The notes below the pieces were generated by a model. That model saw only the letters and a list, made by a program, of their open reading frames with translations, was not told the DNA's origin and searched no databases. From Ampullaceana balthica (taxonomy: Eukaryota > Mollusca > Gastropoda > Lymnaeidae), in contig CALYLW010000182.1 in assembly GCA_944989445.1 (NCBI GenBank), positions 855,501 to 919,500 of the forward strand: DNA of 64,000 nucleotides, written 5' to 3'. Shown here in pieces: positions 33,024 to 59,290 of the stretch (its first letter is position 1; every line of letters begins with the position of its first letter). The position numbers and the translations under genes are program-made.

Positions 33024-35207
33024 TCATTTAAATTTAAGATCATGTGCTTTGTAACCTTCCTTGTCCTTAATATTAATATCTGCACCCTTTTCTTTAAGAA
33101 ATGTAATTAACTCAGTTTGCCTCCAGGTAACTGCAATGCGTAATGGAGTGTTGCCATATTCATCTTGTTTATTAATGTTGGCACCATGCTTAAGTAATAT
33201 TTTTGCAATGTTAAGGTAAGAACCTTTTTCAATCAGATTTTCAGCGGTATCCACAACATTTCCCCGACAGGCAAAATGTAAAGGTGTGAAGCCCCAAATG
33301 TAGTCTTGGATATTAACATCAGCTTTATTATCACGTAAGAGAATTTGAACAATCTCTATGTGGCCATACCGAACTGCAAAAATCAGTGCAGTATAGCCGT
33401 TGCTGTCTTTTATATTAATTTCACAACCTTTATCAATTAACATTTTAACAATATCTTTACGATCATTGTTACAACATGATTTTATCAATATGGTGGAACC
33501 ATGTTTATTTATTTTATTAATATCAGATATAAAATTAATTAATATTTTGGCGACTTCTGCATGTCCATTTTCACAAGCCAGGAATAATGCCGTTTCATTA
33601 TGTTTATTCTCATGATTGATGTTTGCTCCCTTCTGTATTAATATTTCTACAATTTCTTTATGTCCATATTTACATGCAAAGAATAATGCTGTTTCATCAT
33701 TTTTATTTGCATTATTGATTTTTGCTGCCTTCTGTATTAATATTTCTACAATTTCTTTATGTCCATATTTACATGCAAAGAATAATGCTGTTTCATCATT
33801 TTTATTTGCATGATTGACTTTTGCTCGATTTCCTATTAATATACCTACAATTTCTTTATGTCCTTTTTCACATGCAAAGAATAATGCTGTTTCATGATTT
33901 TTATTTGCATGATTGACTTTTGCTCGATTTCCTATTAATATATCTACAATTTCTTTATGTCCTTTTTCACATGCAAAGAATAATGCTGTTTCCCCTATTA
34001 TATTCGCTTCATTTATAATTGTATCACCTCCTACTTCAATTAGCCTTTTAAAAATAGAGATGTTACTAATTTCATTCATGCAGGCATGCATTAAAGCTGT
34101 GTTGCCATAACGAGAGCATATGTTAATGCCTGCATCATTTTTTATCAGTATTTCAACTAGTTCAGCCTTCCCATGCTGAGCTACGAAACAAATGGGTGTA
34201 ACTCCTTCGCTTTTTTTGTTAACTACAGCTCCATTTGCAATTAACATTTCAAAAATTTCTTTCTGCCCATTAATACATGTAAGATACAACAGAGTCCGAC
34301 CATTCTCATCTGTTTCATTGGCCTTTCCATTTTCAAGAAGTATTTCAACAATACCTAAACCTTTAATGCAGGCAGCTGTAAAAGCTGTGTGATATTTAGC
34401 ATTGCTTAACATAATGTCAGCATTATTTGTAACCAGAATTCTTACGAGCTCAAGGCATCCTCTCTCAATGGCGCAATGTAATGCCGTGTCGCCCTGTCCA
34501 TTTCGCCTGTTAATGAATTCAATACCGGCTGTATTTGAAATTTTTATCTTAACATTATCTCTTCTCTGCTGTATTAAAGGTGTATCAACTGTGCTAGGTG
34601 TATCAATGTCAGCTCCATTTTCAACAAATTCAGTATCATGATGTTCTTCACCCATATCAGCCCAAAAGTTAATGAGCAATTCAACAATTTCAAAGTGACC
34701 ACTCTTGCATGCCACGTGTAATGGTGTATCGTGAGTTTTGCTGACTAGGTTGACCTTTCCTTCATTCTTTATAAGAATATTAACTATCTCTGTTTGTCCG
34801 CAAAATGATGCAACATACAGAGGTGTTTCACCTTTACTATTTTGTACATTCACATCTGCTCCACTTCTAATTAATTTGCCTGTAATACTAACATGGCCAT
34901 TTATTGATGAATAAAACAATGCTGTTTCACCTAAACAATTTTGTATATTGACTCTAGAATGTTTTTTAATGAGAAGTTCAGCAAAGTCTAACTTCCCAAA
35001 AACAGATACAACCATAAGTGGTGTCACACCATTTTTATCTTGAAAATTAATGTCCTTTCCTTTATTGATTAACGTTAAACTTTTTTTAATCTCTTTACTC
35101 CTCAATGATGTTAATAATTTGCTAATTGGCAGGTCATCTTTATTTGAATTTAAGACTATATTGTTTCTGTCTGAAAATGGTATATCCTTGAACTCCCCTT
35201 CCTGAAA
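33024..35207 (-). CDS. receptor 2 exon 7: ankyrin-repeat domain and stop
   Basis: One uninterrupted 2184-nt exon. The frame is open upstream of any ATG back to the acceptor (ACTTTCAG at 35208), so it is not an independent gene start; an alternative acceptor 6 bp downstream (35201) keeps the frame. After a 34-residue linker come about 18 repeats of about 33 residues with the TPL/TALxxA...GHxEIVxxLIxxGA pattern. Four central repeats (33601-33996) are near copies: ETALFFACEKGHKEIV twice, then DETALFFACKYGHKEIVEIL twice. The repeat near the C-terminus (NVVDTAENLIEKGSYLNIAK) looks fused by a deletion. Ankyrin domains bind other proteins. Confidence 0.9.
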   Translation of the reverse strand, partial: FQEGEFKDIPFSDRNNIVLNSNKDDLPISKLLTSLRSKEIKKSLTLINKGKDINFQDKNGVTPLMVVSVFGKLDFAELLIKKHSRVNIQNCLGETALFYSSINGHVSITGKLIRSGADVNVQNSKGETPLYVASFCGQTEIVNILIKNEGKVNLVSKTHDTPLHVACKSGHFEIVELLINFWADMGEEHHDTEFVENGADIDTPSTVDTPLIQQRRDNVKIKISNTAGIEFINRRNGQGDTALHCAIERGCLELVRILVTNNADIMLSNAKYHTAFTAACIKGLGIVEILLENGKANETDENGRTLLYLTCINGQKEIFEMLIANGAVVNKKSEGVTPICFVAQHGKAELVEILIKNDAGINICSRYGNTALMHACMNEISNISIFKRLIEVGGDTIINEANIIGETALFFACEKGHKEIVDILIGNRAKVNHANKNHETALFFACEKGHKEIVGILIGNRAKVNHANKNDETALFFACKYGHKEIVEILIQKAAKINNANKNDETALFFACKYGHKEIVEILIQKGANINHENKHNETALFLACENGHAEVAKILINFISDINKINKHGSTILIKSCCNNDRKDIVKMLIDKGCEINIKDSNGYTALIFAVRYGHIEIVQILLRDNKADVNIQDYIWGFTPLHFACRGNVVDTAENLIEKGSYLNIAKILLKHGANINKQDEYGNTPLRIAVTWRQTELITFLKEKGADINIKDKEGYKAHDLKFK

Positions 35208-38200
35208 CTGAAAGTTAAAGAATTTTCAAAAAAATATTATTAATAATTCATTAAAAGTTGGTAGGATGATAACATTATGGTATTATTCTGACTTTCTGTT
35301 GGATGACAAATGTCTATATAAAACATTAGAAAACAAGGGCATATACACATAGGGGCCATCCATATATTACGTATGCAAGGAGCGGGGTCTTAAATTAATG
35401 GCATTTTGCATCTGGATGCATACGAGGGGGGAGGGGGGTCTCGACTGAATGTGTACGTACGCACAGCAAATTTAATTTGCATAACACTAAGCCTAGTAAC
35501 GTAAACCTCTCAGGCTGCTAACGGCATTTGAGACCGACTGAGTCAAGACTGATATGCAATAATGTTTTATGATTTAATGGAAAGTAAAAACTTCTGAACT
35601 TTTACTTTTAAATACTTGGAAGTAATTAACATTCAGACCTAACACTCACACATTCCTAAAATATATACATCAGATTTATATTTCCATTTCTTCAAAATTA
35701 AGAGAAGTTTCTCTTTCGCCCACAGGTGCCTCAGCCGTTATAAATACATACCGGCACAGAGATTTCAATGCTTATATTGTTCTATCTTATTAGTTTTGTT
35801 ATGCAGTGTTCAAGACAATAAAATATGAATGTTCAATTATATTTCTATTTCTTCAATAATTTCAACATGAATAACACGATTTTACATGAATGGCGTCACA
35901 GGATTTAGGCCGATTTTTAGCCCACTCCCTTCATTACACTTTGTTACAAAAAACTTAGACCCCCCCTCCAGTAAGACGCACAAGGGGACCGTCCATAAAT
36001 GACGTCACACACCTAGAGTTGGGAGGGGTCGACAATTTGTCACGAAGTGTGACGCAGGGGAGGGCGTGTTTAAAAAACAAGACGTCACATCAAAACGCGT
36101 TACTTTAAATAAAAGTTGCACTTAAATATTTGATTGTTTACAATTTATTTAATGACGCTTTACGTGGAGAAAGGGAAAGGGGGGAAGAGGAGCAGCAGTT
36201 AACGCCATCGTCCCTTGAGGACAGACGGATGCCATATAATATGGGCTTCACGCGTGTTACGATATTAGAGTGCAGCCTTACACTAAGTACATGCTTAAAC
36301 TTAAATGACCACAAAAAAAAGTGATTTGAGACATGATAATTTTCAAATAAAAAATGGCTTTTATTGGAGGAAGGGCATTTTTGTGACTCATATTGGAAAA
36401 TCAGCCATTATCTCGTGACGTCATAAATGTAGGGCCCCAAAGCTTTGACCCCCTTCCCTTAAAAGCGTATTTTCTAATTGAAAATTAGCATGTTGCAAAT
36501 TACTATTTTGTCTTTAAAGTTTCAGTAAGTATTTAGTGTAAGGCTGCACTCTAATATCATAACACGTGTGAAGCCATTGAAAGCGTCATTAAATAAATTG
36601 CAAGCAATCTATATTTAAGGGAAACTTTTATTTAAAGTTGCGCATTTTGATGTGACATTACCTTTCCCTAACACCCCTTCGCCAAACATTGTCAAAAATG
36701 CGTGACCCCCTCCCTCTTTTAAAGGCGATTGACGTCATTTATGGGCGGATTTATTGTGCCTACGTAATATATGGATGGCCCCATATTGTATATATATTTT
36801 TTTAAGGAAAAACAAATTAACATATATATGGTTTTGTAGTTTGTTTTTATTTCATAGTGTAGAAAGGCAATTTATTTGTTATTTAATAAATAATTAGTTA
36901 CTATTAATAGTCTAGTAGTATTTCACACAAATATAGAGCTAAATCGAAACAAAAATTAAAAATAGTTCCAAATTCAAAGAATTTGATTAGGTATTGAAAC
37001 AAAAATTTATCAATTATGCAGAGGCTAAGTTTTTTAGCCAGAATCTTGAAAAAAATAATTAATAAATAAAAATTTTTGCATGGGGCACAGTGGTCAAGTG
37101 GCATGTGCCCTCAGCTGGTGTATACTCGGCTTGAGTTAAGGTCCCCGTGAAGGCAGGGTAGGCCTATGAAATAATTTTACTCACTAAAATATCTGCATTT
37201 GTAATTGTAATTTTTTTTTAAATATTAATTTGCAATGTCCTTGCAACACTTTTTGCTTGCAATTCTAAATCATTTGTCTAGGATCTAAAGCTTTAGGGAT
37301 TATTATTTTAAAATATTTCAATCAACTTATGAATATAAGGAATTCATCTGCGACTTTCATATTAATACATGTAGAGAGTCTTTACGCATTTATTTACACT
37401 TTAATTCCACACAATATTTTTTTTTATTATTCTTATTTTTCATGTCCAATTGTGTTAGTTATTATTAAATTATTAATCAAAGGTAAATCCCATTCAAGTT
37501 ACAGAGGTACTGTCATTGAAATTGGAACACACCATCTCAGCAACACTATTTTTAATTGTATTTTCTTTTCATACACTGTTAGTATTAGCTCTACACCGTT
37601 TGTGCTCTTTACTACAATGGTAATTTGCTTTGGCTTCATAACTTTTCCCTCTAAATTGTGACTAATTTTGGATACATGAAATATTAGATCTTGCTATTCC
37701 AAAACAGTAATTAGTTTTTCAAATCCATTTCACATGGCGAATGAGCTATTATTATCTCTGATAACAAAAGCAGTTTTCATAATCTTTGATTGTATATTTA
37801 CAAGGTTTCATCTATAATCCTCTTTTAACAATGTTAGCACTGTTACGGCAAAGAATGTCCAAAAATAGCATTTTTCTTTAAAAAAGTGATAAGTAAAAAT
37901 CGAATCTGCTTTTATTATTATTTTAGTGTGATATGTGATTTCAATCATTTCATTTTTTTCAAGTTTTTCATAGCAATGATATTGGTTTATTAATGAAGCT
38001 TCTTCTATATATCATAATTATGCTAGGGTAGGTGTGGTTTCTACATTTTTATTCAAAATCTTTATTTGATCTTTGGTAAGGATTGACAATTAGCATTTTT
38101 TGGTAAGTTTTTAAATCTTTTAAACTTAAACTGTCCACAACAATTTGATGATTTTAACTTAAACTTATTGTGGTTCCAAATATTTTTTTCTCCATGTTAT

Positions 38201-41200
38201 TTAATTAATTCAGCCCTGCATTAAAATTTCAAATTAATCTGACTATAATTTAAAAAAAAATAATTTAGGCTTGTGACACTTAAACTTAAACAACATAAAC
38301 CGAAATTTACGATTTGGTAATAGAGTTTAAAGATTAAAAATCAATTAGATCTATCACTTAACAGAGATAAAAAAGCTAATCATGTTACTTAATCATTTTA
38401 ATGGATGCATCTGGCGTTAACTATTGTAAAGCTAAGTATGCTCTATTCTAGAGATGACTAACCAACAGATTAATCAGAAAAATTATTACCCTAAGATTGC
38501 TACTTCAAGTAAAGCTTTTTGGGATGCTAAGAGTAAATGGATTTAACAAGTAAACTTCAGATCAACTTAATAGAATAAATTTTTGGATTTAAAATAGTAC
38601 ATAATCACATAAATGTATGTGTGTAAATTTAGTATTTATAATATAAATTATATGTGACATTCTCTACTGGGGTTGAGCTGTTTAAGCTCTTAGGACCCAG
38701 CCCAATTTTTCGCATGTGTGCCTCATCACATGTATTGGGCTTAAACAATCCAAGCCCTACACCCGCCAGCTCGGGGCACTCAATCAGTAGATGCTTGACC
38801 GTCTCCTCTAAATAGCCACATAATCAACAGCCGATATCCCTGTTTATATATACTGTTTCACTGACTTAAAGCTATTTTTTTTGGTTGTATTGTTTATGAA
38901 GTTTAAACAAATAATAGGTTGAGCAATATGAACTAAAAACATAGGAATGCATATGTAACCCACAGAATTATCTTACCTCAACATTGCTTTTACATTTCTT
39001 TTTCCGGCAACTGGCAATAAAATATACATTATAGACAAGTTAGATAATATAATTGAACATTAGGAAGGATGATTGTAAAATTAACAAATATAAGGACACT
39101 CTGTTTGTTGTGTGCTGTTTTCCAAAATATAAAAAATTAAAGAAAGGGTTTTATGTAAAAAAATAATAATTGTTATTTCAAAAGTTATATACTACTAATC
39201 ATGAGTTTAAAATTACAGTTTAAATTTGAGTATAAGTCGATCTCGAGTATAAGACAACCCCCAATTTGAGACTTGAAAAGTGGAATTTTAATATTTCTTC
39301 GATAATCGCTACAGTAAACTCATGGCCTGTCAGCTGTGTGTATGTAAATCCATTCGCCACCGACACTATGGTTTCGCAGTAATATATAATCCTATATAAT
39401 AAAAGGCAATGTTCTGTCCGGTCATCGATAGCGATTGGTCCCTCAAACACATATGACTCCTACAGCCAATCATATTGAACACGTTTACGCGGACGTTCAA
39501 AACGAGTTATTTTTTACTTTATTTTGAGTTATGCCATGCGCGTTGGGATTTATAGTCAAAAGCTCTGTTTTGCGAGTTATTTATTTTAACTATAATAAAT
39601 AGTATTTTTGACGTGATGTACATGTATGCCGGTAGAGAGGACTGTTGGAGGGGAGTTACAACATGCCACCAAACGGTGGCGGAACGTCCTTGGACGGGCT
39701 TTGTTGCTCGTTATCAATAAAATAGTATATTTTTATTATATTCCTACATAAATTAAAAATATTTACTTACTGCAATTCAAAAAACAGACATTTATCTTGT
39801 TACTGAAATTTTTTAAAAATGAGTCATGCAAATATAAGTCAACTCCTGATTTTTGCCTCGAAATTTTGAAAAAAAATCTTGCCTTATACTTGAGTATATA
39901 CGGTAGTTATGTGAATCATAAATTTTAATATTTAGGTGATGCACAAGTGCCTGTCACACATCTTTCTCAGCAGTTTGCAGACATGGCAAACACTCTAGCA
40001 GCTATTTGGGTCTAGCAAATTTCCTATAGCTGAAACTGAACAGGATTCCCCAAAACAGAGAGGTGGATCTGTGGCTGATAGTTTTCAATATTTAAGAAAT
40101 GGGAGAATCAGCAATACCAGCCGTTCGCAATGATATTAAGCTGAATGGGGTCAACCAAAGGAATAATTTTCTAAGATATTAATCAGTGATATTTTTTCTT
40201 AATTATGCATCAAAATTTGAAGTACATTTTTTAACAGTGGTTCCTCTAAATAACTTCCACACCTCAGGCAAATCGTAAGCTCTTCCTGATAGTTTAAATG
40301 TTGTTATTGAAGAAGTAGTTATGTTTTATTTCAGCTTGCTGACTTCTCATCTCAGGCTAATCATGAATGGGGTTGGTTTCTTCTTAGATGGGTAATTACC
40401 ATTGATAAAATCTTGCAAGAATAAGTTATCAGATTATTAATAACAGATAAAAAATCCTAAACTTTGCTTTGTATATTTCATAAACACTTCTTCTGAAATG
40501 CTTCCCAGACAGACATGGAATAATGTACATATTCTGATCATGTGCGTAAATAAAGGTAAATCAGAATTGTTACAGACTATTGTTTTCAATTGGGGGTTAT
40601 GAATCTAGGAGAGAATTAAGATTATGAATTTAAATCTCCTAAATTATAAGATGCTGATTTTATTAACTCAGCTTATAAAAATTTACTTGGGAAAAAATCA
40701 TATCTGTTTGCTGGATGTTTGTCAAATAACTTTTGATCACACCATAAAGTCACTATTTTTAATAACGTAATTCCAGCCGCCCTTGTTTTACCCGGCGTCA
40801 TGACTTTGTTCCAGGCTTCGGGGCATGGATACCTTAAATGGGGTGTTCACAAAACTATAATAGCATTATTGTTAATTGGACCGGTTAACCATTCAAAAAA
40901 AGACCGGTTAACCGCTTTTTTTTTCCCCCAAGTAACTACTACATTAAGAATTCAGCTACTCTAGCCCGCCACGTCGCGTGCGTCCGTTGGTGACACGTTT
41001 TTTCCTCTCTTGAGCGCTTCCCGTCAACATTAAAAAAAAGAAATGGGGCATGATGTTTATTACACAGTTTCCAAGTTAGCGTCATTCATAGAAGTGATTC
41101 CCAGATTGAACCATACTGTCCCTGGGAGGACACTTGGTTCGGAGGGGGGAGGGGGGGGGGAATTATTTTTTTTAAAAACATATCATTCCTACCTATCTCA

Positions 41201-44200
41201 TATGGTAGTGTAATAATAGTTTACGCCTGTCCTGACACGTTCAAGTCTTGAGTAGGGGTCTACCAATATATAGGCTGGTATATCTGGATATCGGTATAGG
41301 TAGCATGTAAAGGTCCCGATATTGACGTCACCGATATTTCATAATAAGTGACATTTTGACCACAAAAAACCCCCAGAAAAAAACGATCATTTAGATTTAC
41401 AATATCTCTACAAATTAATATATTGATCCCGATACCGTTATTGAAATAGCCAAAAGAGTCCTAGTATTAATATGTACAGCCACGATACAGTGTGCTATGT
41501 GCTATGATATTGTTTAGGTATCGGCCGATTTTCGTATACTCGGAAATACTGTGTAAATAGTGCAGATGCCAAGTTTACCATAATTGGTCTAATAAATTGA
41601 TAACATGTAAACATTATGTTCACGTATACAGCTCTAATAGCAAAGATGCACGCAGAATCGCAGATGTCTAAAAAAATTTGTTACGTATGGAATAACAAAA
41701 TGTACGTGTGCAGACTTGTTGTCATTGGCAACCATTCATCCTTTAACCTCATTTTCACTCTATTACTATTGCTTTGTTCTCACTGTTTCATTCATAAAAG
41801 GTGGCCATGTGCAAAAGCCATTAAACTATTGGTTATAATTAATAATTATGAGTCACAGTTGAAGTTTCAAAAGGAGTTCAAATTTTGCGTGTACATATTT
41901 ATAAAGGACGGTTCGTTTTGTCATGAGTCCTATGTAGGTCATGATCTGGAGTTGTAAACACATCAGAAACTTCGTTTCGGCACACACACAAAAATCAGTA
42001 ATATCGGCAAAAATGCATATCGGTAGACCCCTATTATAAAATATAAATAATTAAGAGTGATAAATTTAAGAATGACGTCATCAAATAAGACCGCTGGTTT
42101 TTGTCCTAACAAATACTCATATCGGCAACAAAAAAATATCGGTATCGGCAAAATTCATATTGGTAGTCTTGAGAACCTAGTGTGTTGGTAGGCGAACGTG
42201 TTGCGCATTGTCCGGTGCACTAAGCATGGGTATGTGTGCAAAAATCATGCATAATATTGTGTCACAGTCAGGGTTTTCTGTAATTCTTTTTACACGTTTT
42301 ATTATCTCAAAACCTCTGATTTACAACACCTTTGTTTAATATAGATAGAATTAGGATAGTTATGTTTATGTGCTAAAAAGATTCGGACGTGGAAAAGGGG
42401 GTGGGGGGGACGGGGCGCAAAGTGTTGTATTGTTTTGACTAAGGTGCATGCGCACAGCGCAATTTCCGCGTCAGTCAACAGCTGAATCCCGCTAGTACTA
42501 GTACTATTAGTTGTGAACTTCAGTGAAGCAGGGCTGTAACGCGTCACGTACGCATGCTTACAACTATGCTATGTAGCTTTACACACTACTACACAGCAGA
42601 CTGAAACTACTGTCAGCTGGGTGTGGTATCGCGTTGCAGTACACGTGTCTCGTGTGACGTTCGCACTGTGACAAAGCTAGAGGAAAGCGCGTTTTTCTGC
42701 TTCCCATAAATCCAAGAATTGAAGTAGCGGTTAACCAGTCCTGGAAAAACTGGATAACCGGTTAACCGTTAACAACCTTATTTCTAAAGTCAACGTTTTT
42801 CGCCCTTTAATTTAAATTAAATGCAGTTAAAATTATATCAAGTGGTAGAAATACTTTTCCTCTCTCTAAATCAGTTTTGTTTTGTATACTTATATATAGT
42901 GATTCATTTCCTCCAGAGAGTCTGTGCAGCACGACCTCGAACATGTCGGTGTATCGCATATTGCGGCAGCTCATTTAGAATACTTAGTTATAATATTTAT
43001 ATTATTTATTGCATCCTAAAATCTAAATAAAAAATAAGCTAATTTACCATGCAATGATTGCCAAAGCAATAAGGAGTAGTGTTACAATTATAATTATAGG
43101 AGCCAATATGATGTCAATTAATTCGTTTGGTGATTTAATGCTATCATGTATGAATTCTGAAAAGAAAAAAAATCAAACTTTAAAATAAACTTACACATCA
43201 AGTTTAATAAAGCAATACTTTTGTATAAAATCAAATTAAGTTAATCAATCTCCTATATTCTTACTTACTATTTCATTCAACAAAGATTTACTGAATAGAT
43301 CATGAACCATGGACTTTTTATAAATTATAGATAACTTTAAGTTATAAAACTCAAGGAAAAGTCACATGAAATAAGCTGTTTAATTGTTTGATAATTTTAA
43401 TGACAGAAAATTAGAAGGAAAAAAAAATTAATTACCACACACATGCAAATGCGTACACACTATAGGTCATTTAACACAAACCAATACTCACGTGCTTTTA
43501 GTGTACAATTAATGACTTGATATTCTCCATCCAGACTGCAGGCAGCATATTTTAATGTTATTAATGTATGCTCTGCAGATTTTATGCTTCCATTAAAGAC
43601 AACATGACTTCTTCTTTCAGAGACAACAGTTTTATTATCTTTAATAATCTCAATCACACATGGTTTGGCTGAACTATTACAGTCAAATTCAAGGGAAAAA
43701 TCAGAACCTTTAATAGTTGTATTACAAGATTCTTCATTCAACAGTTCTTTCCCATTTATTTTTAGAAGTCCACTTGCTCCAGTTGGATCTATAAATAAAA
43801 TTTTTAAATAGATAAAGCTTAATAAAAAATAACACATGCATACAGTCTTTGGTGCAAAGAATACATTTCATATCCTTGCAACGTTGACCCTGGGTGATAA
43901 TGATGATATTATGGGGGAAGCTATGATTTATATAATTCCAAATACTGAAAGATATTGAGAAGTCACAAATCTATTTAAAATAAATATTTTAAAATAAGAA
44001 ATATTTTTTTTTAAAATTGGTTTCTGATTTCAACTTGAAAGGCTATTGAATGTTAATAAGATTTATTTATCATTTTCTATTTATTAGATTTAATTACCTG
44101 TTGAAAAAAGTGACCAAACAAATAAAGAGCATTCTTTGTTGTGTTAATGGACACTCTCATTTTGAGAATGCTAATATTTGTTGAAAGGCAAAATCTTGGT

Positions 44201-47200
44201 GTAAGTAGAAATTTTTTATTTTGAACAAAAAGAAAACACCAACAAAAAAAAACACACACAAAGCACTCTATAACTGTATACTCACTAGCTCAGTCGATTA
44301 AAGTACTAGACACACACATTAAATGATAGACTTTTATGAAAACTACTTCACCAAAGTACTGTGTGAGTATTTCAGTGAGGAAAATACATAGCAAAATTTC
44401 TTTTGTAGTTTTCTTACATGTATACAAAAATATTAAATGCTTAAGTAAGAGTTAAATTCAGTAGGTACTTACATCATTTGTAAGACAATTAAGAGATGAA
44501 TGAATTTATTAACTAAGAAAATATATAATAATGGGCTTACCATATATATCTGGAAACACACTTGTGTTACTGTGGTTATAGTTCATTGTACATCTTATGT
44601 TCTTATAATTTTTAGCTACCACTTGATAAGTAATATTAAAAATATTTTCTTTCACTTTCTGACATTGATACATTGGGTGATCATTTCCAAAACATTCTTG
44701 CGATAAATCCAAATGTTGCAGCTGTAAATTTAAAAATGAACTGTAATTGATTATTGCCAAAATTCAAAATTGTATGGAACTTTGAATTAAACAATAGTAA
44801 ATGTCTCTAATTAGTCAGTTAGAGTTACACAAAATATCTCAAATCCTCCCTGGTTTCCAATGGCATATGTGTTGCAACTGATTAATAAATTAAAAATATT
44901 TGTTTAACCATCAGTTACTTCTAATCTTAAGAAAACTAGAGTTAAGTATATATTAACATTTATTAAACTTCCCCTTGTTCTTTAAAACTATAAAATATGT
45001 AAGTGTTTCAAATGTCAGCAATTAGACAGCAGCTCTCAAGAATATAATTCTGTCATTGAGAACCATCCCTGGTTAAGACTATCATTTTCAAAGCATTTTA
45101 ATTAAGATTAAATATAAACCTTTTTTACTTTGTTATAATATTTTCATTATATTTCATCAGGTTCCATGTGCTCTTTGTCAAAATTAAAAATTCTCACTAC
45201 CTTGGGTTTTTTATTTTTTTTTATTTTTAATGCAGCTAAATGAACTTTTTCAGAAAAATCACAGAAAAAAACGTAATAAGAATTAAGATTAATCTAAAAA
45301 GAATTTTAAAAAACACTTATCTCTGATATTTATTATTGTGGTAAAAGCAAATTCATGATAAAATGGTTCAAGAATAAAATAAAGAAAATCACCATATGAG
45401 CTAATACAATGTGAATAAATTTTAAGTTTAAAATGAAAACTTATAGCTGGTATAAATGCAACAATATGTACATTTTAAAAAAAAATTCATACAACTTTTC
45501 TTCTTCAATTTTTGACATTACTCTAGCACAAACTTCACAAACTTTCTAGACAATAAAACTTTATGACCAAGCAATTATTCGAGATATCAAATAACTTATT
45601 TCATAATTTCTACAACTAATGTATTACTATTTATTTCTAAAAGGAAAATCCTCTCCTATGTTGTGTTTAAAAAATATCGTAATACCTTATTTTTGAACAT
45701 GTACTAATAAAAAAGTTTTCACAACTTTATTAGGCTATATCTTAATGTTAAGAACAGGTAGCTTTTTTTATTTTAATCATAAGGCTAAAAAAAAAGGCAA
45801 AATTACCCTGTATAACTTTATCTGCCATGTAAAGCAGATAAACAAAAATTGAAATTTTACAAGAAACAACACAAGAGGACTGTATTATTCTTTGACAAAT
45901 AGACTAAAAGCTAAAAAACTAACACTATTTATTTTATACACAATAATAAACACATCAAATTTGCATTAGTCTGGGGTATAATGGGTTGCCTGATCAAACC
46001 AGGAAAACCAACACACTCTCAAAATTAAAAATATCAAAAGTACAAAACTTGACAAAAACAATGCAAAATCACAGGATTATCTTCTGTATAGACTGAATGT
46101 CTGTAATAGATACTATAGAATAGGATCAATCATTCACTTTTAGTTTGGGAATATCTGAGCCCCTGATAAACCTGAATCAGACTTGAGCTTGATTCAGGTA
46201 AAACAATATAATTGTATATTACATGATTACTTGTGGTTTTCAGGAAGCTTAGCATGTTTGGCTGAAAGATCTTTATAGGTTACCACTAATTTAGTTTTAC
46301 AAAAAATTTGTTGGCAGTTTAAACAAAAACATTAGAAAAAAAGTATACTTGCATCAATGAAATCCTGCTCATTTGTTTCTTTAATTTGAAAACGAACAGC
46401 TGTACCCAATTTTGGTTCTTCATCTAATGTAACTGTGCATGTAAAAGAGCACCAATCAGTTTTTTTTATGAGTCCATTTGAGCATGCTGTGTTGCATTCT
46501 GCGTTGTTCATCTCTAGTTTTTGACTAGTTATACCTGTGGAAAATGGTAATACAAATAAAAAACAGAAAAAAGCATCTATATAATAATAAAAGGCAATTT
46601 TCTGTCCATTCTGTCCGGTCCTCGATAGCGATTGGTCCCTCAAACACATGTGACTCCTACAGCCAATCATATTGAACACGTTTACGTGGACGTTCAAAAC
46701 GAGTTATTTTTGGTGCAGTATTTCTTCCAAGACTTTATTTTGAGTTGTGCACGTTGGAATTTATAGTCAAAAGCTCTGTTTTTACGAGTTATTTATTTTA
46801 ACTATAATGAATAGTATTTTTGACGTGATGCACATGTATGCAAGTCGAGACGGCTGTTGGAGGGGAGTTACAATATGCCACAGAACGGTGGCGGAACGTC
46901 CTTGGACGGGCTTTGTTGCTCGTTATTAAATATTATTTGTAATCAATATTTTTACCAAAACCAATATGTGCTATTTTAAGATAAGTGTGGTTATCTTTAA
47001 ATTAGGACTGTTTAAAATCGACATTTGGCTTATATGCATACATATATACACACATATATATACACATATACATATATACACACATATAAATATATACACA
47101 CATATACATATATACACACATATACATATATGCACATATATACAAAAAACATATATTTTTTAAAAGAGACATCAACATAATGTATGAATAAAAGCAATAT

Positions 47201-50200
47201 TTTACATTCATTTGTTGTAATTCCAACTAAAGAATATATGTGAATGATTAGGTATGGCAAAACTAGGGAACAGCCGGATATGGTTTTTTACTATTTACCG
47301 GATCCGGATAGTTTGGCCCTAATATTTTCCGGATCCGGATTCCAACTCTGGATATCTCCACATTAAAGTGTAAGAGCTAAGAGGGTGTACTTTACTTTAC
47401 TACTTTATATCTAGTATTTAATATTAGTTATTAAAATACTTATTATCCAACAAATGGAGAGTATCTGCTATCTACTATGACGGTTTGTAACACCGTCCAA
47501 GTCAACGATGAACATTTTACAATGAATTGGATGAACACACTTCCACGAACTTTGTAGTGTGCACCAAGCGGAAAATGTTGTACTGAGTGTGTAGTGTGGT
47601 GTACAAGAAGTCGAGATCTAGAGCCATTATAAAAAATTGTTGTTTTATTCAGACAATTTAAGTTTAATACGCTGTGAGTTAACTTAGTTCGTACTTATGT
47701 AGTAAAGTAATATCGTTATTTGTAACTTTTTAACTTAATATTTTTTTCTCGTATTGAAATTGACTGTTTTACTAATTTTGCGTGGATTTGAATGATTTCA
47801 TGATCAACGCTTGTTAATTTGTTTAGTTTGTTATTTATTATTAAGTTAATGTATGACTTAATTTGTTTCTTAACTTATTTTGTATAATTATAACATTCAC
47901 AATAGACTAGAGTTTTAAAATTATAAGACTAAATAAGATATAACACGGGAGACAAGGAAATTTTTATTTTTAAGTTCGCAAATCAATTCATAATTACAAC
48001 TGCTATTTAAAGTTCAACGAAAAAAACAACAAAGAATATAAAATTATTACAATGATATAACTTATATAATATAAGTAAAATGTTTAAATTTAAATACTGA
48101 ATTGAAAATATTGAATGATTGACTACTGTGAACAAGAAGTTTAAAAACGATAGCTAACACTCAGCCTGTTCTAGTTTTTAAGGCTCCTGTTTAACTATAA
48201 AGTTTATAAGTATAAACTAATAATTACAAATTTAACTTAAAATTATTTTTTTTAATATAACATTAATATTTCAGCTATGACAATGGAAATAATTTAGTGA
48301 CATGAGTAAATAAAATAGTTACTAGTTAGTAGTTACTAGTTATTTATTATTAGAAGGTTGTGACATGGTAATCAGCAGTACTTGTTACCTTAAAGTTTTA
48401 AGTTTGTTTCTTCAATTTTTTAGGTTCGACAAATTGTGTGTCATACCCAAATTCAATAACATCCCAAGTTTGTTCGGAGACAAGCGAGAACGATTATCAT
48501 CATTTATCTGCCCCGCTGTGCTGAATGCTCTCGCACTATCCATTCTTATTAAATGTACTGATTTCTGGTTATTGTTTTTTACTTTTTATATATTTGTTTA
48601 TAAACTTATTATTATTAATTTAATTTGATTTTAAAAAATCTTTACTACATTGATATCCGGATACTAACCGGATCTGCCATAAGTATTTGCCGAATCCGGA
48701 TAGAGGCGAAAATCCCGATATTTGGTCCGGATATCCGGCATGCGGATATTCGGCTGCCCTCTAGGCAAAACCAAAGCAAAATAAAATAATGCCAGGTAGA
48801 GTTGATTAATTTTATATTATACATAAGTGATATCAATAGATAAGACAACTTCTTGATTAAACCATCCATTTATAATGATCATTCTTTAAAAAAAATTAAG
48901 TTGTTTTAAAGGGACTTGATAGTAATATACATTATCGGGAAAAATGGTTTAAAAAAAATTGGTAAAAATTAATTTGATTTATTTTTATCTTTAATATTTT
49001 CAGTAAATGTAATTTTCTCCCCCTCATAGAAACTAAAATTTTATTTAATTAGCTAAGGCCAAACAAAATAAAACTTGACAATGAACACTGAGTGTCATCT
49101 TTGAAAAAAACATATTTCAATAAAGAATAAACAAAAAAAAACAACAAAAATACATTTTCTTTGCTATTAAACTATGGATTTTTTAAAATATGTAAATAAC
49201 AATGTATATCAAGTTTATTGTGTAAAAAAAATTTTTTCTTCAAAATATGATGCATATGTATTTAAAAAGAAATCCTATGCAAAAAAATTAACCTGGGAAA
49301 TGCAGATGACAAAATATTAGGAAAAATCATAACAGAATTTATTATTTCATTTGCAAGTTATTATAGGTAAATTTAACACACTCATTTAATTTGGCTACCT
49401 GAACCTGAAGCTATGCTGATCATTCTCTGCACGATTAATATTTTGACAAATATCACAAAAAGAAAGTCAGCAATCATAAAAGTAGAAAAACGATTATGTC
49501 ATTCATAAAAACTATTTAAAAAACAAGTATGTTTTGGATAATTATTAATTTGCTTAGCCTTTCCCAAATAAAAATTCAGACATAATAAGAATAGACTAAT
49601 AAAATGATATACATCACTGGAGTTAACTTTAATTTACAAATAATAATATAGAAATATAATATAGCAATAAACTCAACAACTTGTAATGTAAATTGGATTT
49701 ACATTGCATAATGAATAATGTGACTGTTGAGGTGATGGGATATGAATGTTTTTTTACTGAATTTTTTGTTTGGTTACTGATTATTATTTCTTTTTTTAAA
49801 AAATATTATTATTATTACTAATAATGAATATACTTATGCTTTAACTTTAAAGATTGATTAAAGTAAGTAACATCTCCGGCATCTCCGGTATACTTATTAT
49901 TAGTATCTTAGAGAGCAAATTTATGTCATAGTCATGTGAATTACAATTTCCATCAATGAATCAATTGATATAAATATAATATAATGTTTAAAATTATATC
50001 TTTTTTAGAAAAACTGTTTTACATAACATTAAATGTTAAAAAAGGAGGGCTGCGGAAATTATAGATTAATCGTTACAATATTATATTGCTTAAAATATTT
50101 TTGATCGATAAAAATTTAAGAAATTTACAGTTTTAATAAAATAGAAATAGGCTGCAGACCTTACGCCTAGGATTATTAATTTAGGCCCAATAAATTATAT

Positions 50201-53200
50201 AATTAAAATGTGCCTTAAGTATAATTAGTATAAGCTATATTGTATTAAATTGGATTTTTAATAAAATGTGGGTCAAATCAGATAAGTCGTACCCAAAACG
50301 GATATATAGAAATTAATTCTGCGTTCTCTCCCCTTATATTTTTTGGACAAGAGTGTGCTCCCTTTGTTTTTCTTATTGTTTTTTATAAGGGCTGCGGAAA
50401 TTATCGATTAATCTCTAGATTAATCGTTAAAAATTTTATCTTTAATCGATTAAAATAATTTTAATCAATAAAAATGCGATTAAAATTTAAGAAAATATTT
50501 ATAATATTTTTTTTAAATTTTAGTAATAAATAATAAATTATTAATAATTAATAATAATTTATATATATTTTTTACGTACAAACATCTCCCGCGTAATATT
50601 AAAATTTATTTTATTAATATATGTTGACCGGCATACGTCAACTAAAAAATGGCTGACAGCCAGAGCCGTCTTTACACCATTTTGGGCCCCCGGGGCAAAG
50701 AAATAGTGTTGGGCCTTTCCCCCACAGGAATAAAAAATGAATAAACATAATATATATAAATAAACATATTCCCATGGGGCCCATATGCTCGTGGGCCCCC
50801 GGGCAAATGCCCAACAGGCCTATGCGTTACGAAGGCCCTGCTGACAGCATCAGCGCAGTTAAATTTAAACATATAACTAAAAATTTGAGCAAATATGTTG
50901 TTTTTAAGCTAACTGCGGATGGCAAAGTCGAAGATGGTGAAAAAGTTTACTGTATTCACTGCCATAAACAATTATCTTTTAAAGGATCAAATACATCGCT
51001 GACTTACCACATTCAGCACAAACCAAGTATCAACACATTGTCATGAAATTTAGTTCAAAATATTCTTCATTTTCAATGTCTGTGAGATATGTTCATTTTA
51101 ATGACGTCATAAATTTCTATTTTTGGTTTTAATCGAAATTATCGATTAAATTAATCGATAATTTTTCAAAAGTTAACGATTAAATTTAAATTAATCGATA
51201 ACAGCCCTATTTTTTATGTAATCATGCGCATTAAATAAGCCTATATAATTTTTACAGAAAATGCTAAATTAAATTTTTTAAAATAAGAGGGGTTTGGGAG
51301 TTTTTTTAAATATGGTACTATTTCATTTGCGGAATTTTAAAAAAGTGATGAAATTTAAGCGTGGGTCTAGATACAAAATGCCGGTCATTTTCCATATTAT
51401 ATCTCCAGGCCCTAACATAGCAGTAAGTTAATTTTTTTTTCTCGGTTATCTTAAAATGTGGGTAAATTTTTGCTGGTGCCCTTTTAATAATCCTCTATAA
51501 CTATAAGCCTTCTTATTTTATTTACATCCGTGTTATTGGATATTTAAATGACTCACATTCATGCCACTGTGACGCGACCATTGAAAAATTGATATTTTTA
51601 TAGTTAGTCACTTATCAATTTTTGCTGTTTAATTGAATGTACCAACCAAACAAATTAATGTCTCCCATTTTTTAGTTAACCCGTGTGTTTGTCTACTTTT
51701 TAGCTGCCATTATGTTGCTATGCTACATGTCACAGGAACAAAGTGGCCACCAGGTAATGATATATAATGTGGGTAGGTCAACTCCGAATTTACCAAAATG
51801 TGTTATAAGTTAGGGTAAAGAGGGGTAAGCCCCAGGTTTTAAATATATTTTCTTTTGTTCCTTTGAAATAAATAAATATTATTACATTCAAACAACTAAT
51901 GCTTTTAAGTCATAGGCAACCCATATTTATATAAGGGGAAAATGTTATTCAACATAATAATGAAGCAATATAGCAAAAATATACTAAAAAGTTAGAGATA
52001 TCCATTTATGAAACTTAACCAAAATGGGGGCAATAAGCCCTATTTTGTAGAAGGTATATATTTTCACAGTGGTTGTTGACAACTCTTATTGGTTCACTCC
52101 ATGTCTTAAATATAAGCCTCTTCTTGGATGTCTATGCATTTAACATGGTACCAAATGCTTTGGTTCACCCTTTTTTTGTTTTGTCAGTGGCGGAGTCTGT
52201 TTCATCACAGATACATTTCTGACTGGGGTAGCCACATAATTTCCGCATCCTGTTAAGTATTCTTGTGTAGTTCAAACCATTTCTCAATAACCCAAAGGTC
52301 CTCAGCTTAGGCCCTTGGCATAATGCTCTGTTTTTCTTGGAAACACTGTTGGATGGTGCCTCAGAAAGCCTCATAACTAGTCAAGACTATGTTGACGCTC
52401 CACGATTTGTAACTAATGGATCTATTATCAAAAATCTAAAAACAAAGATTTTAAAAATTATTTCCACAAATCATTAAATTTTGTTTTCATTTTAAGGCGT
52501 TTCTTAATATATGTTAATTAGTTTAAAACATGAAATTTCTTTATCTTATCACTAGTTTTGGTGGTTTTAAATTTTTTTAAAGTTGGGGGCTTTAAGCCCC
52601 AGGATTTTCATAAATTAATGTAAACAAGGTAATTAATGAGAAACTTGATTAAAGGCCACTCCATTCAAAATAATAGAGGAATGGTTTACATTTATGCTAA
52701 GGCTAAAATCAGAGCTCTTTATATAAAAAATTTCAAATATTTCATCCAAGACCCACTGTATTTTGCAAAAACAAATGTCTTCCTCACTAGCAGAACATAC
52801 ATGGCCTACAAATATAAGTTTATAACTCAAAAATGACATGCACAGATTGAAAAAACTGAAAAAGGTACTTACTTAGTAACTTAGTAAAGATGTACTAGTA
52901 CTTGAAACTAGACAGAGATTTGAAAATCGCAGCTTAAAAATACTGTTTCATCATCAAAACAATGATGACTTGACAGAGCAAAAGTTTTTGGCCGATGGTA
53001 GACACCGCGTAACGCGCGGTGTCCACTCAGTTGGGTGGATGACACGCATTACACAGTCTGTTTATTTTGGTATACCCAGTCCACCTTAATAGCTTAAAAT
53101 TTATTTTTAAAAAGATTTATGATTTTAAAATTAATTTGGTAAAAGCAAAGAGAACGGTGCGCTCGATAAATCATATTTTTGGTTGCTATATTATATTTGT

Positions 53201-53997
53201 TGTTTTTTCTATTTAATTTAATTTAATTTAAAAAATAGACAACTAAACCTAACCCAGACCCTAAAACTGAAACTACAACCTTAAAAAAAAAGACTCAAAC
53301 GAAACTCTTTTTCTATTTTAATTTAAAAAATAGACAACTAAACCTAACCCAGACCCTAAAACTGAAACAACAAACTTTTAAAAAAAAAGACTCAAACGAA
53401 ACTCGAACCTCCACCTGACACCTAGAGTTCAAGAATCTAATGTCCTAACCGTGAGACCACAGAAGCTCATGTACCGTATGAATTTTTAAAAATCTTATAA
53501 AGTAGTAAGAGCAAAATGTGACGTCACGTTTACGCGACACCCAAGCTTTACAGTGGATGCCGCGCATTGCGCGGTGTCTACCCACTTCGAAAGTTTTTAG
53601 ACATGTTTGAATGAAATAGGAAACAGCAGAAAATAATCATTCTTACAAAGATGCAAAGTAATAATTAATATCATAGGCCATAGGTAAGAAACCCAAACAT
53701 GGTTGTAAATTATTCCCTGATTATTTAGATTCTTTCCATGTCGTCCATGTAGAACTAGATGCCTCTCTTTAACTTTAGTCTCTTTCTTATAAAATAGCCG
53801 ATGACCCCAGCACCAGTAAGTGGGGCTTATTTCCCCATGGGTCCCTTTACCCCTCTTTACCCTATATAAATTTAAATAAATTATATACTTATTATGAACT
53901 TACTTGTACTAGTAAATGTTCCGATGCAAAGACTAATGCCAATTCCAATTTTAAATAATAATAGTGACAGCCTTACTACTTTGAATAGATGAATCAT
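33024..53997 (-). CDS. receptor 2: Ig-like ectodomain, membrane segment and ankyrin-repeat cytoplasmic domain (7 coding exons)
   Basis: Coding exons on the minus strand: 53997-53904, 46534-46349, 44696-44541, 43788-43492, 43156-43048, 39010-38977, 35207-33024. They total 3060 nt, 1019 codons plus stop, with GT-AG junctions and matching phases throughout. Predicted order: signal peptide (1-about 27), Ig-like module 1 (32-145), Ig-like module 2 (146-244), short stalk, membrane helix about 260-280, CCRKKKCK stop-transfer (281-288), linker, about 18 ankyrin repeats to residue 1019. Likely a surface receptor with an intracellular scaffold; ligand and partners unknown. Weakest points: the acceptor of the third exon (a better pyrimidine-rich acceptor at 44721 would break frame unless another exon exists) and the 3.8-7.4 kb introns. 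Confidence 0.7.
35352..36782. mobile_element. TIR transposon with perfect 22-bp ends, nested second TIR element
   Basis: Ends are exact inverses over 22 bp, starting GGGGCCATCCATATATTACG (35352-35373 and 36761-36782). Inside, GACCGTCCATAAATGACGTC (from about 35988) faces GACGTCATTTATGGGCGG (to about 36748), a second nested element. No coding gene. The same outer family is at 57370-59897. Located in the last intron of receptor 2. Confidence 0.8.
37083..37155 (+). repeat. possible tRNA-derived SINE head
   Basis: Starts GGGCACAGTGGTCAAGTGGC, like an A box, then GGCTTGAGTTAAGGTCCCC, a weak B box, about 45 bp later. No tail or duplication identified. Confidence 0.25.
37160..38640. other. AT-rich intron of receptor 2
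   Basis: No feature recognised; low-complexity AT sequence. Confidence 0.5.
38650..38845 (-). pseudogene. LINE C-terminal zinc-knuckle fragment
   Basis: On the minus strand: LCGYLEETVKHLLIECPELA followed by VGLGLFKPNTCDEAHMRKIG. The C-G-Y-x-E-E-T-x-x-H-L-L-x-x-C-P block is the C-terminal CCHC-type motif after reverse transcriptase in many non-LTR retrotransposons. The first Cys codon is adjacent to a stop, so the copy is dead. Confidence 0.6.
38977..39010 (-). CDS. receptor 2 exon 6: stop-transfer micro-exon
   Basis: A 34-nt exon: acceptor ATTGCCAG, donor GAG|GTAAGA. With the last two bases of exon 5 it codes C-CRKKKCKSNVE. Adjacent cysteines and a basic cluster right after the membrane helix are typical of type I proteins and suit palmitoylation. 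Phase 2 in, phase 0 out, fitting both neighbours exactly. Confidence 0.75.
39226..39904. mobile_element. TIR element with GAGTATAAG ends
   Basis: Left end TTGAGTATAAGTCGATCTCG and right end CTTGAGTATATACGGTA are inverted relatives (TACCGTATATACTC type). It contains the 350-bp repeat at 39391-39720 as a later insertion. No coding gene. Confidence 0.5.
39391..39720 (+). mobile_element. 350-bp non-autonomous repeat, copy A
   Basis: Matches 46576-46927 at high identity: starts CTATATAATAAAAGGCAATG, contains ATAGCGATTGGTCCCTCAAA and ends GGCTTTGTTGCTCGTTAT just after a GTCCTTGGAC hairpin. The TCTATATAATAATAAAA-like start and hairpin end suggest a Helitron relative, but CTAG is absent. Lacks 22 bp present in copy B. 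Confidence 0.6.
40880..42775. mobile_element. TIR element with ACCGGTTAACC ends, interrupted
   Basis: Left end TTGGACCGGTTAACCATTC with GACCGGTTAACCGC, right end GCGGTTAACCAGTCCTGG with ACCGGTTAACCGTTAAC: inverted arrays of GGTTAACC. The TIR element at 41253-42165 is inserted within it. No coding frame of note. Confidence 0.55.
41253..42165. mobile_element. hAT-type element with CCGATAT ends and 8-bp duplication
   Basis: Begins TAGGGGTCTACCAATATATA and ends ATTCATATTGGTA (inverse of TACCAATAT), flanked by GTCTTGAG at 41245-41252 and 42166-42173. The last eight bases expected from the left end are missing at the right. A TAGACCCCTA end also occurs inside at about 42022-42033, suggesting a composite or internal duplication. 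Confidence 0.6.
43048..43156 (-). CDS. receptor 2 exon 5: membrane segment
   Basis: Acceptor TTTTTTCTTTTCAG, donor CATG|GTAAAT. Phase 1 in, phase 2 out. Codes residues 245-280: a short stalk (QFIHDSIKSPNELID) and the helix ILAPIIIIVTLLLIALAIIA. Too short for the open-frame length filter, but phases match on both sides. Confidence 0.85.
43492..43788 (-). CDS. receptor 2 exon 4: second Ig-like module
   Basis: A 297-nt phase 1-1 exon: acceptor TTTTATTTATAG, donor C|GTGAGT. Codes 99 residues with FSLEFDCNSSAKPCVIEIIK (strands B-C), an E-strand-like HTLITLKYAA, and DGEYQVINCTLKA, the classic D-G-x-Y-x-x-x-C F strand. Clear Ig-like fold with sequons NTT, NSS, NGS and NCT. Confidence 0.85.
44541..44696 (-). 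CDS. receptor 2 exon 3: first Ig-like module, second half
   Basis: Donor G|GTAAGC is strong. With the acceptor CGCAAG at 44697 the exon is 156 nt, phase 1-1, and codes KCFGNDHPMYQCQKVKENIF then NITYQVVAKNYKNIRCTMNY. A stronger acceptor (TTTACAG at 44722) would add 25 nt in phase 0 and need an additional upstream exon. The CAAG acceptor parallels receptor 1 exon 2. Confidence 0.6.
44722..46348. other. AT-rich intron of receptor 2
   Basis: No repeat boundary recognised. A hidden short exon (phase 1 in, phase 0 out) is possible if the downstream acceptor is 44721; none was found by eye. Confidence 0.45.
46349..46534 (-). CDS. receptor 2 exon 2: first Ig-like module, first half
   Basis: A 186-nt phase 1-1 exon: acceptor ATTTTCCACAG, donor A|GTATAC. 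Codes ITSQKLEMNNAECNTACSNG, then TDWCSFTCTVTLDE and AVRFQIKETNEQDF. Four cysteines, with a CSFTC strand-B-like motif. Confidence 0.75.
46576..46927 (+). mobile_element. 350-bp non-autonomous repeat, copy B
   Basis: Starts TCTATATAATAATAAAAGGC, ends GGCTTTGTTGCTCGTTAT, and contains a duplicated-looking TTCTGTCCATTCTGTCCGG near the start. It ends 41 bp upstream (in transcript direction) of receptor 2 exon 2, inside the usual branch-point zone. Confidence 0.65.
47034..47150. repeat. ACATAT/TATACAC microsatellite
   Basis: Imperfect tandem CACATATA-type units over about 115 bp. Confidence 0.9.
47264..48763. mobile_element. hAT-type transposon (1.5 kb)
   Basis: Ends TAGGGAACAGCCGGATATGG and TAGAGGGCAGCCGAATATCC (inverse), followed inward by clusters of GGATCCGG/CCGGATATCC. 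Flanked by a perfect 8-bp duplication GGCAAAAC at 47256-47263 and 48764-48771. No intact transposase. Lies in the first intron of receptor 2. Confidence 0.9.
48772..50378. other. AT-rich intron of receptor 2
   Basis: A GGCTGCGGAAATTATAGATT phrase at 50049 repeats the left end of the element at 50387 (a solitary end). Otherwise unassigned. Confidence 0.45.
50649..51046 (+). pseudogene. BED zinc finger of a hAT transposase, split by a MITE
   Basis: The downstream frame reads KNLSKYVVFKL, GEKVYCIHCHKQLSFKGSNT, LTYHIQHK: C-x2-C ... H-x4-H of a BED finger, the DNA-binding N-terminus of hAT proteins. The frame's ATG-GCT-GAC-AGC start is at 50649-50660, and a 180-bp MITE sits directly after these codons. 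The frame stops after 70 or so codons, so the rest of the transposase is gone. Confidence 0.75.
50661..50840. mobile_element. nested hAT-type MITE
   Basis: A 180-bp element starting CAGAGCCGTC and ending GAAGGCCCTG, rich in GGGCCCCCGGG, flanked by CTGACAGC at 50653-50660 and 50841-50848. It interrupts the BED-finger frame. Confidence 0.85.
52165..52374 (-). pseudogene. pogo-like transposase fragment
   Basis: MRLSEAPSNSVSKKNRALCQ matches the 'LRxPEATSxxRA' linker of pogo/CENP-B-type transposases, and CICDETDSATDKTKK matches the NxDETG block that carries the first catalytic Asp of the DDE triad. Short and closed by stops on both sides. Confidence 0.65.
52997..53583. mobile_element. hairpin-ended element with tRNA-like segment
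   Basis: Both ends carry GGTAGACACCGCG-type inverted sequence, and each end is itself a near-palindrome (ACACCGCG-TAA-CGCGCGGTGT). Inside is a tandem duplication of about 95 bp (AACTAAACCTAACCCAGACC at about 53242 and 53337) and a tRNA-like segment. Confidence 0.65.
53400..53464 (-). pseudogene. tRNA-like segment, possibly Gln(TTG)
   Basis: On the minus strand: A-box-like GTGGTCTCACGGTTAGGACA, B-box GGAGGTTCGAGTT, and an anticodon arm TAGAT-TCTTGAA-CTCTA with four pairs and TTG at the anticodon position. The acceptor stem is not convincing. Most likely a tRNA-derived internal promoter of the surrounding element. Confidence 0.5.
53904..53997 (-). CDS. receptor 2 exon 1: start codon and signal peptide
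   Basis: Codes MIHLFKVVRLSLLLFKIGIG followed by ISLCIGTFTST and ends in phase 1 at A|GTAAGT. Hydrophobic leader with a basic start. Phase 1 fits exon 2 exactly, as in receptor 1. Too short for a length-filtered frame list. Confidence 0.7.
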
Positions 53998-57369: not shown

Positions 57370-58119
57370 GGGGCCATCCATATATTACGGACCCAATGAG
57401 GGGGGGGGGTGGGAGGTTTTAATTAACGGGATTTTGCGTAAGGGGAGGGTAGGTGGGTCGCGACTGAATGTGTACTGTGTACGTATGTATAACAAATTTA
57501 ATTTGCATAATACTTAGCCTAGCAACGAAAACCGCTCAGCCTGCAAACGGCGTTCGAGACCGACTGAGTCACGACTGATATGGAATTATGTTTTATGATT
57601 TAATTTTAATGCAAACGAAATTCTGAACTTTTAATTATTTGAAAGTAATTAGTATTTGATTCAGACTAAACGTTTACACATTACTAAAATCAGTACCAAC
57701 ATAATATCCGTCTGATTTATAGGGGCCGTACATAAATGTCGTCACAGGATTTAGTCCTGTTTTCACCCCCCTTCCCCACTCGTCACATGTCGTCACAAAA
57801 AGTTAGACCCCCCCCCCTTTCAAAACGTTATTTGCTTTTTGAAAATGAGCATGCTTCAAAACATTTTTTGTCCATTTTATGTATTTCTTTAGTGTTGGTC
57901 TGTATAATAATATCTTAACACGCGTGAAACAATGTGAAACGTCATTAAATAAATTATAAGCAATAAAATATTAAAAAGGAACTTTCATTTAAAATTGCGT
58001 GTTTTGACGTGAAGTCACAATACTCAAACTCCCCCAAATGTGTGGTCCTCGTCCCCACTAGGTGCGTCACGTCATTTATGGACGGCCACATATTGCCATT
58101 TCTTAAAAACTAGGTTGTG

Positions 58120-59290
58120 CTGCGGCCTCGTGGCGCCTGCGGCGCCCACTTTTTTAGGGCGCCTACGGCACCCACCTTTTCAAAAGCCCAACTAACTTGT
58201 CCTTGCATGATCATCATCGCCCTTCGTCCCATCTGGGGCATATGCCATGAACAAAGGCTCTCCAGGCATCCCGGTCCTGCGCCAATCTTTCTATCTGCCC
58301 CCAGCTGTGCCCGCTCATTTTGGTGTCTGCCTCCAGTTCCCTTCTCCAGGTCATTTTGGGACGACCTCTTTTTCTCTTTCCTTGGGGGTTCCATGCATGT
58401 GAGGGCTTGTCTCACAATGCTGGATGTAGGCTTTCTGAGAGTGTGGCCAATCCATCTCCATCTTCGCTGGCGTATTAGCTCTTCCACTGGCTCTTGTTGT
58501 GTGCGTTGCCAGAGGTCTTCGTTGGTGATGACAATGGGCCAGCGGATTCGGAGAATTGTTCGGAGACATTTGTTTATAAAAGCTTGAAGCTTTTTTGAAA
58601 TGGCTGCTATTCGCCATGTTTCTGCTCCATACAGCAAGACAGTCTTTATTGTGGTGTTGAATATCCTGACCTTGGTATGGAGAGTCAAGTTGTAGTTCCA
58701 AACATTTTTTAGCTGTTTAAATGCTGTTATTGCTTTGCCAATTCTCATTCTTACATCGGGTTCTGTCCCTCCTTGTGTGTCAAAGATGCTTCCAAGGTAT
58801 GTGAAGCTATCCACCTCTTCGAGATTTTTTCCTTCTAGTGTTATTGGAGTGTTGCTTGATGGATTTATTTTAAGGACTTTGCTTTTTCCCTTATGGATGT
58901 TCAGGCCAAGGCAAGCAGAGAACTGTGCTTCATAGTTGGTTTTCTCCTGCATCGGTTGCGGTGAGTGCGATATTAATGCCAGATCATCCGCAAAGTCCAA
59001 GTCATCAAGTTGCTTCCATAGTGTCCACTTGGTACCATTTCTCTTTTGCTCTGTTGACATTTTCATTATCCAGTCGATGGTTAGCAGAAATAAGAATGGT
59101 GAAAGAAGACACCCCTGTCTGACTCCGGTCTGTACCCCAAAACCCTTGTATGATAAATAAGTAATATTAAACTTCCTTAAATGTACACAAAGTATTTTAT
59201 AATAGGGATTGTTTTTTTGGTCAAAAGCCCAAGTAACTTATCCTTGTATGATAAATACGAAATATTCCTGAAATGTACACAAAGTATTAA
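58120..59290. repeat. GGCGCC-ended repeat hosting the LINE
   Basis: Carries GGCGCC runs and the phrase AAAAGCCCAACTAACTTGTC, recurring at about 59223, 61470-61500 (inverse) and 63250-63320 (inverse). Confidence 0.5.
58206..59147 (-). pseudogene. 5'-truncated LINE with reverse transcriptase C-terminal part
   Basis: On the minus strand: LDFADDLALISHS (the catalytic F-A-D-D), CLGLNIHKGKSKVLKIN, DSFTYLGSIFDTQGG, LLYGAETWR, LRTILRIRWPIVITNEDLWQ, RWRWIGHTLRKP. This order is typical of the palm-to-thumb end of non-LTR reverse transcriptases. The upstream palm and the endonuclease are missing, and the reading shifts frame near the end. It interrupts the surrounding repeat between CCTTG and TATGATAAAT, an arrangement seen unbroken at 59242. 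Confidence 0.85.

Follow-up and report, generated by a model that had tools for sequence, protein, structure and literature searches.

The window analysed here, a stretch of 64,000 nucleotides (nt) from the gastropod Ampullaceana balthica (assembly GCA_944989445.1, contig CALYLW010000182.1, positions 855,501 to 919,500), carries on its minus strand, at 33,024 to 53,997, a gene that probably encodes a type I receptor: a signal peptide, two immunoglobulin (Ig)-like domains, a membrane helix, a basic micro-exon, and about 18 ankyrin repeats, with the ankyrin tail gained first and the whole gene duplicated later. This topology is predicted from the signal peptide, the helix, and the basic segment. 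With its junctions predicted, the Ig-like/ankyrin chimera very probably exists and seems not to have been described before. An earlier note on the window, made from its letters alone, knew of no Ig-type surface receptor with an ankyrin tail, and no receptor combining Ig, membrane, and ankyrin parts was found in the open-access literature.

The earlier note had joined seven GT-AG exons into 1019 codons. That model is reproduced exactly in its AG/GT sites, phases, and length (3060 nt; 1019 residues plus stop), but the junction between exons 2 and 3 is wrong. Two Lymnaea stagnalis relatives, P0022 and P0023, show LQHLDLSQEC to be part of the mature domain, and the former exon 3, which started at 44696, omitted it. 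An acceptor at 44721 needs a donor four bases earlier, a GC donor (GAT/GCAAGT) at 46353. The junction was moved to 46353/44721 because several observations agree: the scores of the two halves of P0022 rise (285 to 313 and 237 to 264), a profile from the Lymnaea domains alone, containing no window sequence, places exon 2 at positions 6-58 and exon 3 at 58-118, and the gene's second copy has a GT donor (GAT/GTAAGT) at this site and exons of the same 182 and 181 nt. The corrected protein has 1026 residues, or 1024 if exon 7 starts at 35201, as it may because the second copy has no upstream AG.

The identity of exon 1 is uncertain. The tentative choice (53904..53997) provides a start codon, a hydrophobic N-terminus resembling a signal peptide, and a phase-1 donor, GTAAGT, of 8.9 bits. 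Among 16 upstream phase-1 candidates, 49399..49477 (MIADFLFVIFVKILIVQRMISIASGS) is also signal-peptide-like, with a more hydrophobic peptide and a weaker phase-1 donor (7.3 bits). Exons 2 (46353..46534, 182 nt) and 3 (44541..44721, 181 nt, beginning LQHLDLSQEC) encode the two halves of Ig-like domain 1 and match adjacent parts of the Lymnaea-only profile (E 2.7e-8 and 1.7e-4); exon 4 (43492..43788, 297 nt) encodes Ig-like domain 2 (E 3.6e-30). The junctions 1/2, 3/4, and 4/5 are all phase 1, and phase-1 introns at domain borders are a feature of the immunoglobulin superfamily. By hydropathy, exon 5 (43048..43156, 109 nt) encodes a stalk and the single strong helix besides the signal peptide, at about residues 257-280. 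As the earlier note had described, CCRKKKCK follows directly, across exon 6 (38977..39010), a 34-nt micro-exon encoding CRKKKCKSNVE that serves as a stop-transfer segment and is required for the frame of the ankyrin exon.

Exon 7 (33024..35207, 2184 nt, or 2178 nt from 35201) ends the frame with a stop, and a candidate polyadenylation signal, AATAAA, lies about 410 nt beyond it (32607..32612, minus strand). Repeats cover almost the whole exon, with 17 PF00023 stretches (E 4.6e-119), an Ank_2 match (PF12796, E 1.5e-127), and 18 repeat starts by pattern, as the earlier count of about 18 predicted. The resulting cytoplasmic tail is about 727 residues long. A block of similar 99-nt repeats occupies 33538..33933 on the minus strand, and around it the second copy is shorter by one 33-residue unit. 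By sequence, the solved natural proteins that exon 7 matches best are ankyrin-1/2 and NOMPC, and designed ankyrins rank between them; these matches name no partner, ankyrin repeats being generic.

The strongest support for the chimera comes from the second copy. When the ankyrin exon was searched against the assembly to which the window belongs (G000, 1.097 Gb), 212 matches resulted, and 61 of 848 candidates were scored. About 90 kb away on the same contig (C182:798040-800133) lies a close relative of exon 7, in two pieces that are 86% and 82% identical to it, while the other ankyrin frames among the matches listed reach at most 48%. The second copy has exons of 182, 181, 297, 106, 34, and 2091 nt, as compared to 182, 181, 297, 109, 34, and 2178 nt here, and its exon 4, membrane exon, micro-exon, and ankyrin exon keep the same order, orientation, and phases. 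The membrane exon, at 106 nt, retains the frame and still encodes a helix; the micro-exon has 34 nt and the same sites; the ankyrin exon is open over 696 residues. Joined, the exons give 962 residues, open from the first Ig-like domain onward, with a single stop at the end. The acceptor of its exon 2 was picked to match, another AG lying upstream.

Taken together, the adjacent, in-phase, open exons of both copies support the earlier proposal that the ankyrin exon is a real part of the transcript, with the predicted junctions presumably used in vivo. The alternative of two genes appears improbable. It would have the receptor terminate with the membrane exon or shortly beyond it (in IIAW, or in ...NVEVR through a retained intron), and a different transcript, starting from a 5' exon of its own, would carry the ankyrin exon. 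An AATAAA lies 38 nt past the membrane exon (43005..43010, minus strand), and retention of this intron would end the protein at ...IIAW. Both retained introns beside the micro-exon contain stops, both Lymnaea relatives have short tails, and the genome holds many other long open ankyrin frames. Against this, the ankyrin frame is open to its acceptor, starting 18 nt before it, and its first methionine is residue 71; between the membrane and ankyrin exons there is no ATG exon (12 to 59 codons) whose phase-0 donor reaches 5 bits. The micro-exon supplies exactly the phase that is required, as the earlier note had recognized, and a protein stopping at IIAW would be left without the basic stop-transfer segment. 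Proteins with these two ends, IIAW and NVEVR, could still be natural short forms.

The micro-exon itself ranks second by splice score among nine phase-compatible candidates between the membrane and ankyrin exons, and its donor, at 10.5 bits, is the best of them, the scores coming from hand-entered matrices that are textbook approximations. The entire minus strand offers 70 such candidates, of which exon 6 alone has at least four lysine or arginine residues among its first eight, a cut-off picked with the answer already known. Skipping it computationally loses the ankyrin frame and yields ACFRKGSSRIYHFQTETI, then a stop. Skipping would thus shift the frame to give a short-tailed form, and the micro-exon may act as a switch.

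The open frame of exon 7 is unlikely to have survived by chance. Across 691 aligned codons the copies differ by 141 substitutions, and neither contains a stop; when 141 changes were placed randomly on exon 7, a mean of 5.4 stops arose, and 0.45% of the 2000 trials stayed free of stops (P = 0.0045). The indels in exon 7, one of them a whole 33-residue repeat, leave the frame intact, and in the membrane exon they add up to three bases. Of the 14 indels in the intron that separates the micro-exon from exon 7, 7 have lengths not divisible by three.

Several observations weigh against a functional chimeric receptor. The ratio of nonsynonymous to synonymous divergence (dN/dS) is 1.16 for exon 7 (P 0.60) and 0.94 for exon 4 (P 0.80), neither differing from 1, and constraint is visible in the open frame only. 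The micro-exon region is 95.8% identical between the copies over 71 nt, not above the adjoining intron (95.5%), and therefore points to descent rather than constraint. The domain-1 exons of the second copy lie about 20 kb upstream of its exon 4 with a broken exon 3 in between, and no first exon was found for it, neither exon 1 candidate being present in the surrounding 36 kb (C182:797001-833000). The Lymnaea-only membrane profile, built from two sequences, missed exon 5, and the two cysteines after the helix are not general: P0023 has YYKR and the second copy RR.

Part of this evidence would also fit a decaying fusion, both copies being unexpressed or non-functional: the dN/dS values of exons 4 and 7, both close to 1, the broken exon 3, the missing first exon, and the GC donor here. 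This is the least probable of the readings considered. No stops are found where 5.4 are expected, indels keep the frame over the 691 aligned codons, and domain 1 has a dN/dS of 0.38 between the copies. GC-AG introns with an AAGT context are, moreover, a known functional type.

Outside the ankyrin tail, the gene has relatives. When residues 30-300 were used as query, about 5.8 billion proteins gave one match of similar total length, P0022, a Lymnaea stagnalis protein of 562 residues containing the domain pair twice; a profile of the window ectodomain and P0022 added P0023 (321 residues, Lymnaea stagnalis). Both have a homologous two-domain ectodomain, a signal peptide, and one membrane helix, followed by tails of about 30-40 residues without ankyrin repeats. 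The window gene shares the ectodomain and single-helix layout of the Lymnaea proteins and lacks their short tail, and is a variant rather than a typical member of their family. Exons of this family occur on 27 contigs of the assembly, and among the matches listed only the window contig has an ankyrin match nearby. The family of Ig-like single-pass snail receptors is large, spread over many contigs, and fast-evolving.

The domains are termed Ig-like only, because no Pfam Ig profile matches them: the frames of exons 2 and 4 (E 1) and P0022 (E 5) matched no Ig family, exon 3 lying outside the scan. In a structure model, domain 2 of P0023 takes an Ig-like fold, resembling MAG, Tyro3, VCAM-1, and ICAM-1.

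The favoured history is that a phase-0 intron let one family member on the window contig acquire an intronless ankyrin exon, after which the gene duplicated; the tail would then have been gained, not lost. The arrangement shows how a micro-exon and a single phase-0 intron can precede an intronless ankyrin exon. A possible source is offered by the long open ankyrin frames of the assembly, one of which (G000 C991, around 62854-64692) is open over 8353 residues, the remaining listed matches having open frames of about 560-2300 residues. In the receptor, the outer domains would probably bind a surface ligand on a microbe, a parasite, or an own cell, and the ankyrin solenoid would be a built-in adaptor docking cytoskeletal or signalling proteins, so that ligand binding may be coupled to an ankyrin scaffold. 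The size of the family, its rate of change, and the analogy with clusters of single-pass genes reported to be tied to parasite resistance in snails (PMC7494358) suggest a recognition role, perhaps in immunity.

A more specific proposal can be put forward only tentatively: a modular receptor for recognition, built by recombining one ankyrin tail with a range of Ig-like heads, whose cytoplasmic ankyrin surface diversifies, whose outer and inner faces both evolve as binding sites, and whose micro-exon switches the tail on and off. The upstream exons 2 and 3 of the second copy, assigned to it from phase, length, and order, encode a domain 1 only 48% identical to that here (synonymous divergence, dS, 1.03), while the tails differ by a dS of 0.06; this fits the proposal, as if heads had been exchanged. 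The broken exon 3 remnant is 92% identical to exon 3 here over 115 nt. This truncated exon (C182:805732-805846) stands beside exon 4, with the different open domain 1 far upstream (824581-828543). Also fitting is nonsynonymous change in the ankyrin exon, which exceeds change in the adjoining intron (115/1643 versus 79/1745, P 0.002) and is enriched at positions presumed, from designed ankyrin proteins, to contact ligand (23/116 versus 21/221 at core positions, P 0.010; P 0.048 against all other positions). The frame is thus kept while its sequence changes fast, and positive selection on the ankyrin exon is possible. Counting against the modular receptor, dN/dS is not above 1, other non-coding baselines are higher (3' flank 25/403; intron 4-5 68/330), and the micro-exon switch is computed only.

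The same architecture might instead belong to an adhesion or tissue-structure protein without an immune role, its ankyrin solenoid tying an Ig-like protein to the cytoskeleton or to channels. The ankyrin-1/2 and NOMPC matches of exon 7 and the likeness of P0023 domain 2 to MAG, Tyro3, VCAM-1, and ICAM-1 favour this possibility, which is nonetheless the less likely one. A large, multi-contig, fast-changing family, the divergence of domain 1 between copies, and the changes at ankyrin contact positions all fit recognition better than conserved structure.

Other features were observed around the gene. Two intron segments beside the micro-exon (40881-42758 and 35292-37068) have no match in the second copy and are probably insertions here; the former is flanked by CCGGTTAACC motifs and the latter contains inverted repeats. 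Copies of a single dispersed repeat lie 7.2 kb apart at 39412-39717 and 46609-46929, the second just upstream of exon 2. On the plus strand, a second receptor-like gene (17690-21148) has Ig-like exons at 19122-19406 and 19637-19984 and a membrane exon at about 20300-20406. Its tail exon (20700-21148) contains several YIT[IVA] tyrosine motifs; neighbouring receptor-like genes therefore differ widely in their tails. An open exon-like frame at 1751-2116 (plus strand) has Ig-like spacing by eye and no Pfam match, and a reverse transcriptase fragment (RVT_1, DUF6451) lies at 58110-59237 on the minus strand.

Among known systems, Ig-like receptors usually signal via short tyrosine tails, kinases, or adaptor motifs. 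TRPA/TRPN channels and ankyrin-1/2 likewise place a long ankyrin solenoid at a membrane, but the channels are multi-pass proteins and the ankyrins soluble adaptors; TRP channels have six membrane helices, as compared to one strong helix besides the signal peptide here. Notch has fewer ankyrin repeats than the window receptor. It too is a receptor with intracellular ankyrin repeats, but the available account describes an EGF/LNR ectodomain and a released intracellular domain (PMC10970066), in contrast to the Ig-like ectodomain here; the exon 2 and exon 4 frames and P0022 gave no Pfam match to EGF or LNR. The polymorphic single-pass transmembrane gene clusters (PTC2) of Biomphalaria, compared by description, share with this family the clustering and fast divergence of single-pass surface proteins in freshwater snails, and the word "ankyrin" is absent from the main text of that paper (PMC7494358). 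Those clusters are marked by hyper-polymorphic haplotypes tied to resistance; the present analysis covered a single assembly. If true, a receptor that brings along an ankyrin scaffold of such length would couple a variable recognition head to the inside of the cell in a new way, and relatives of these snails carry trematodes. Ig-like single-pass receptors with short tails are known from Lymnaea; what appears to be new is one with an ankyrin cytoplasmic domain, most likely captured by a member of that family.
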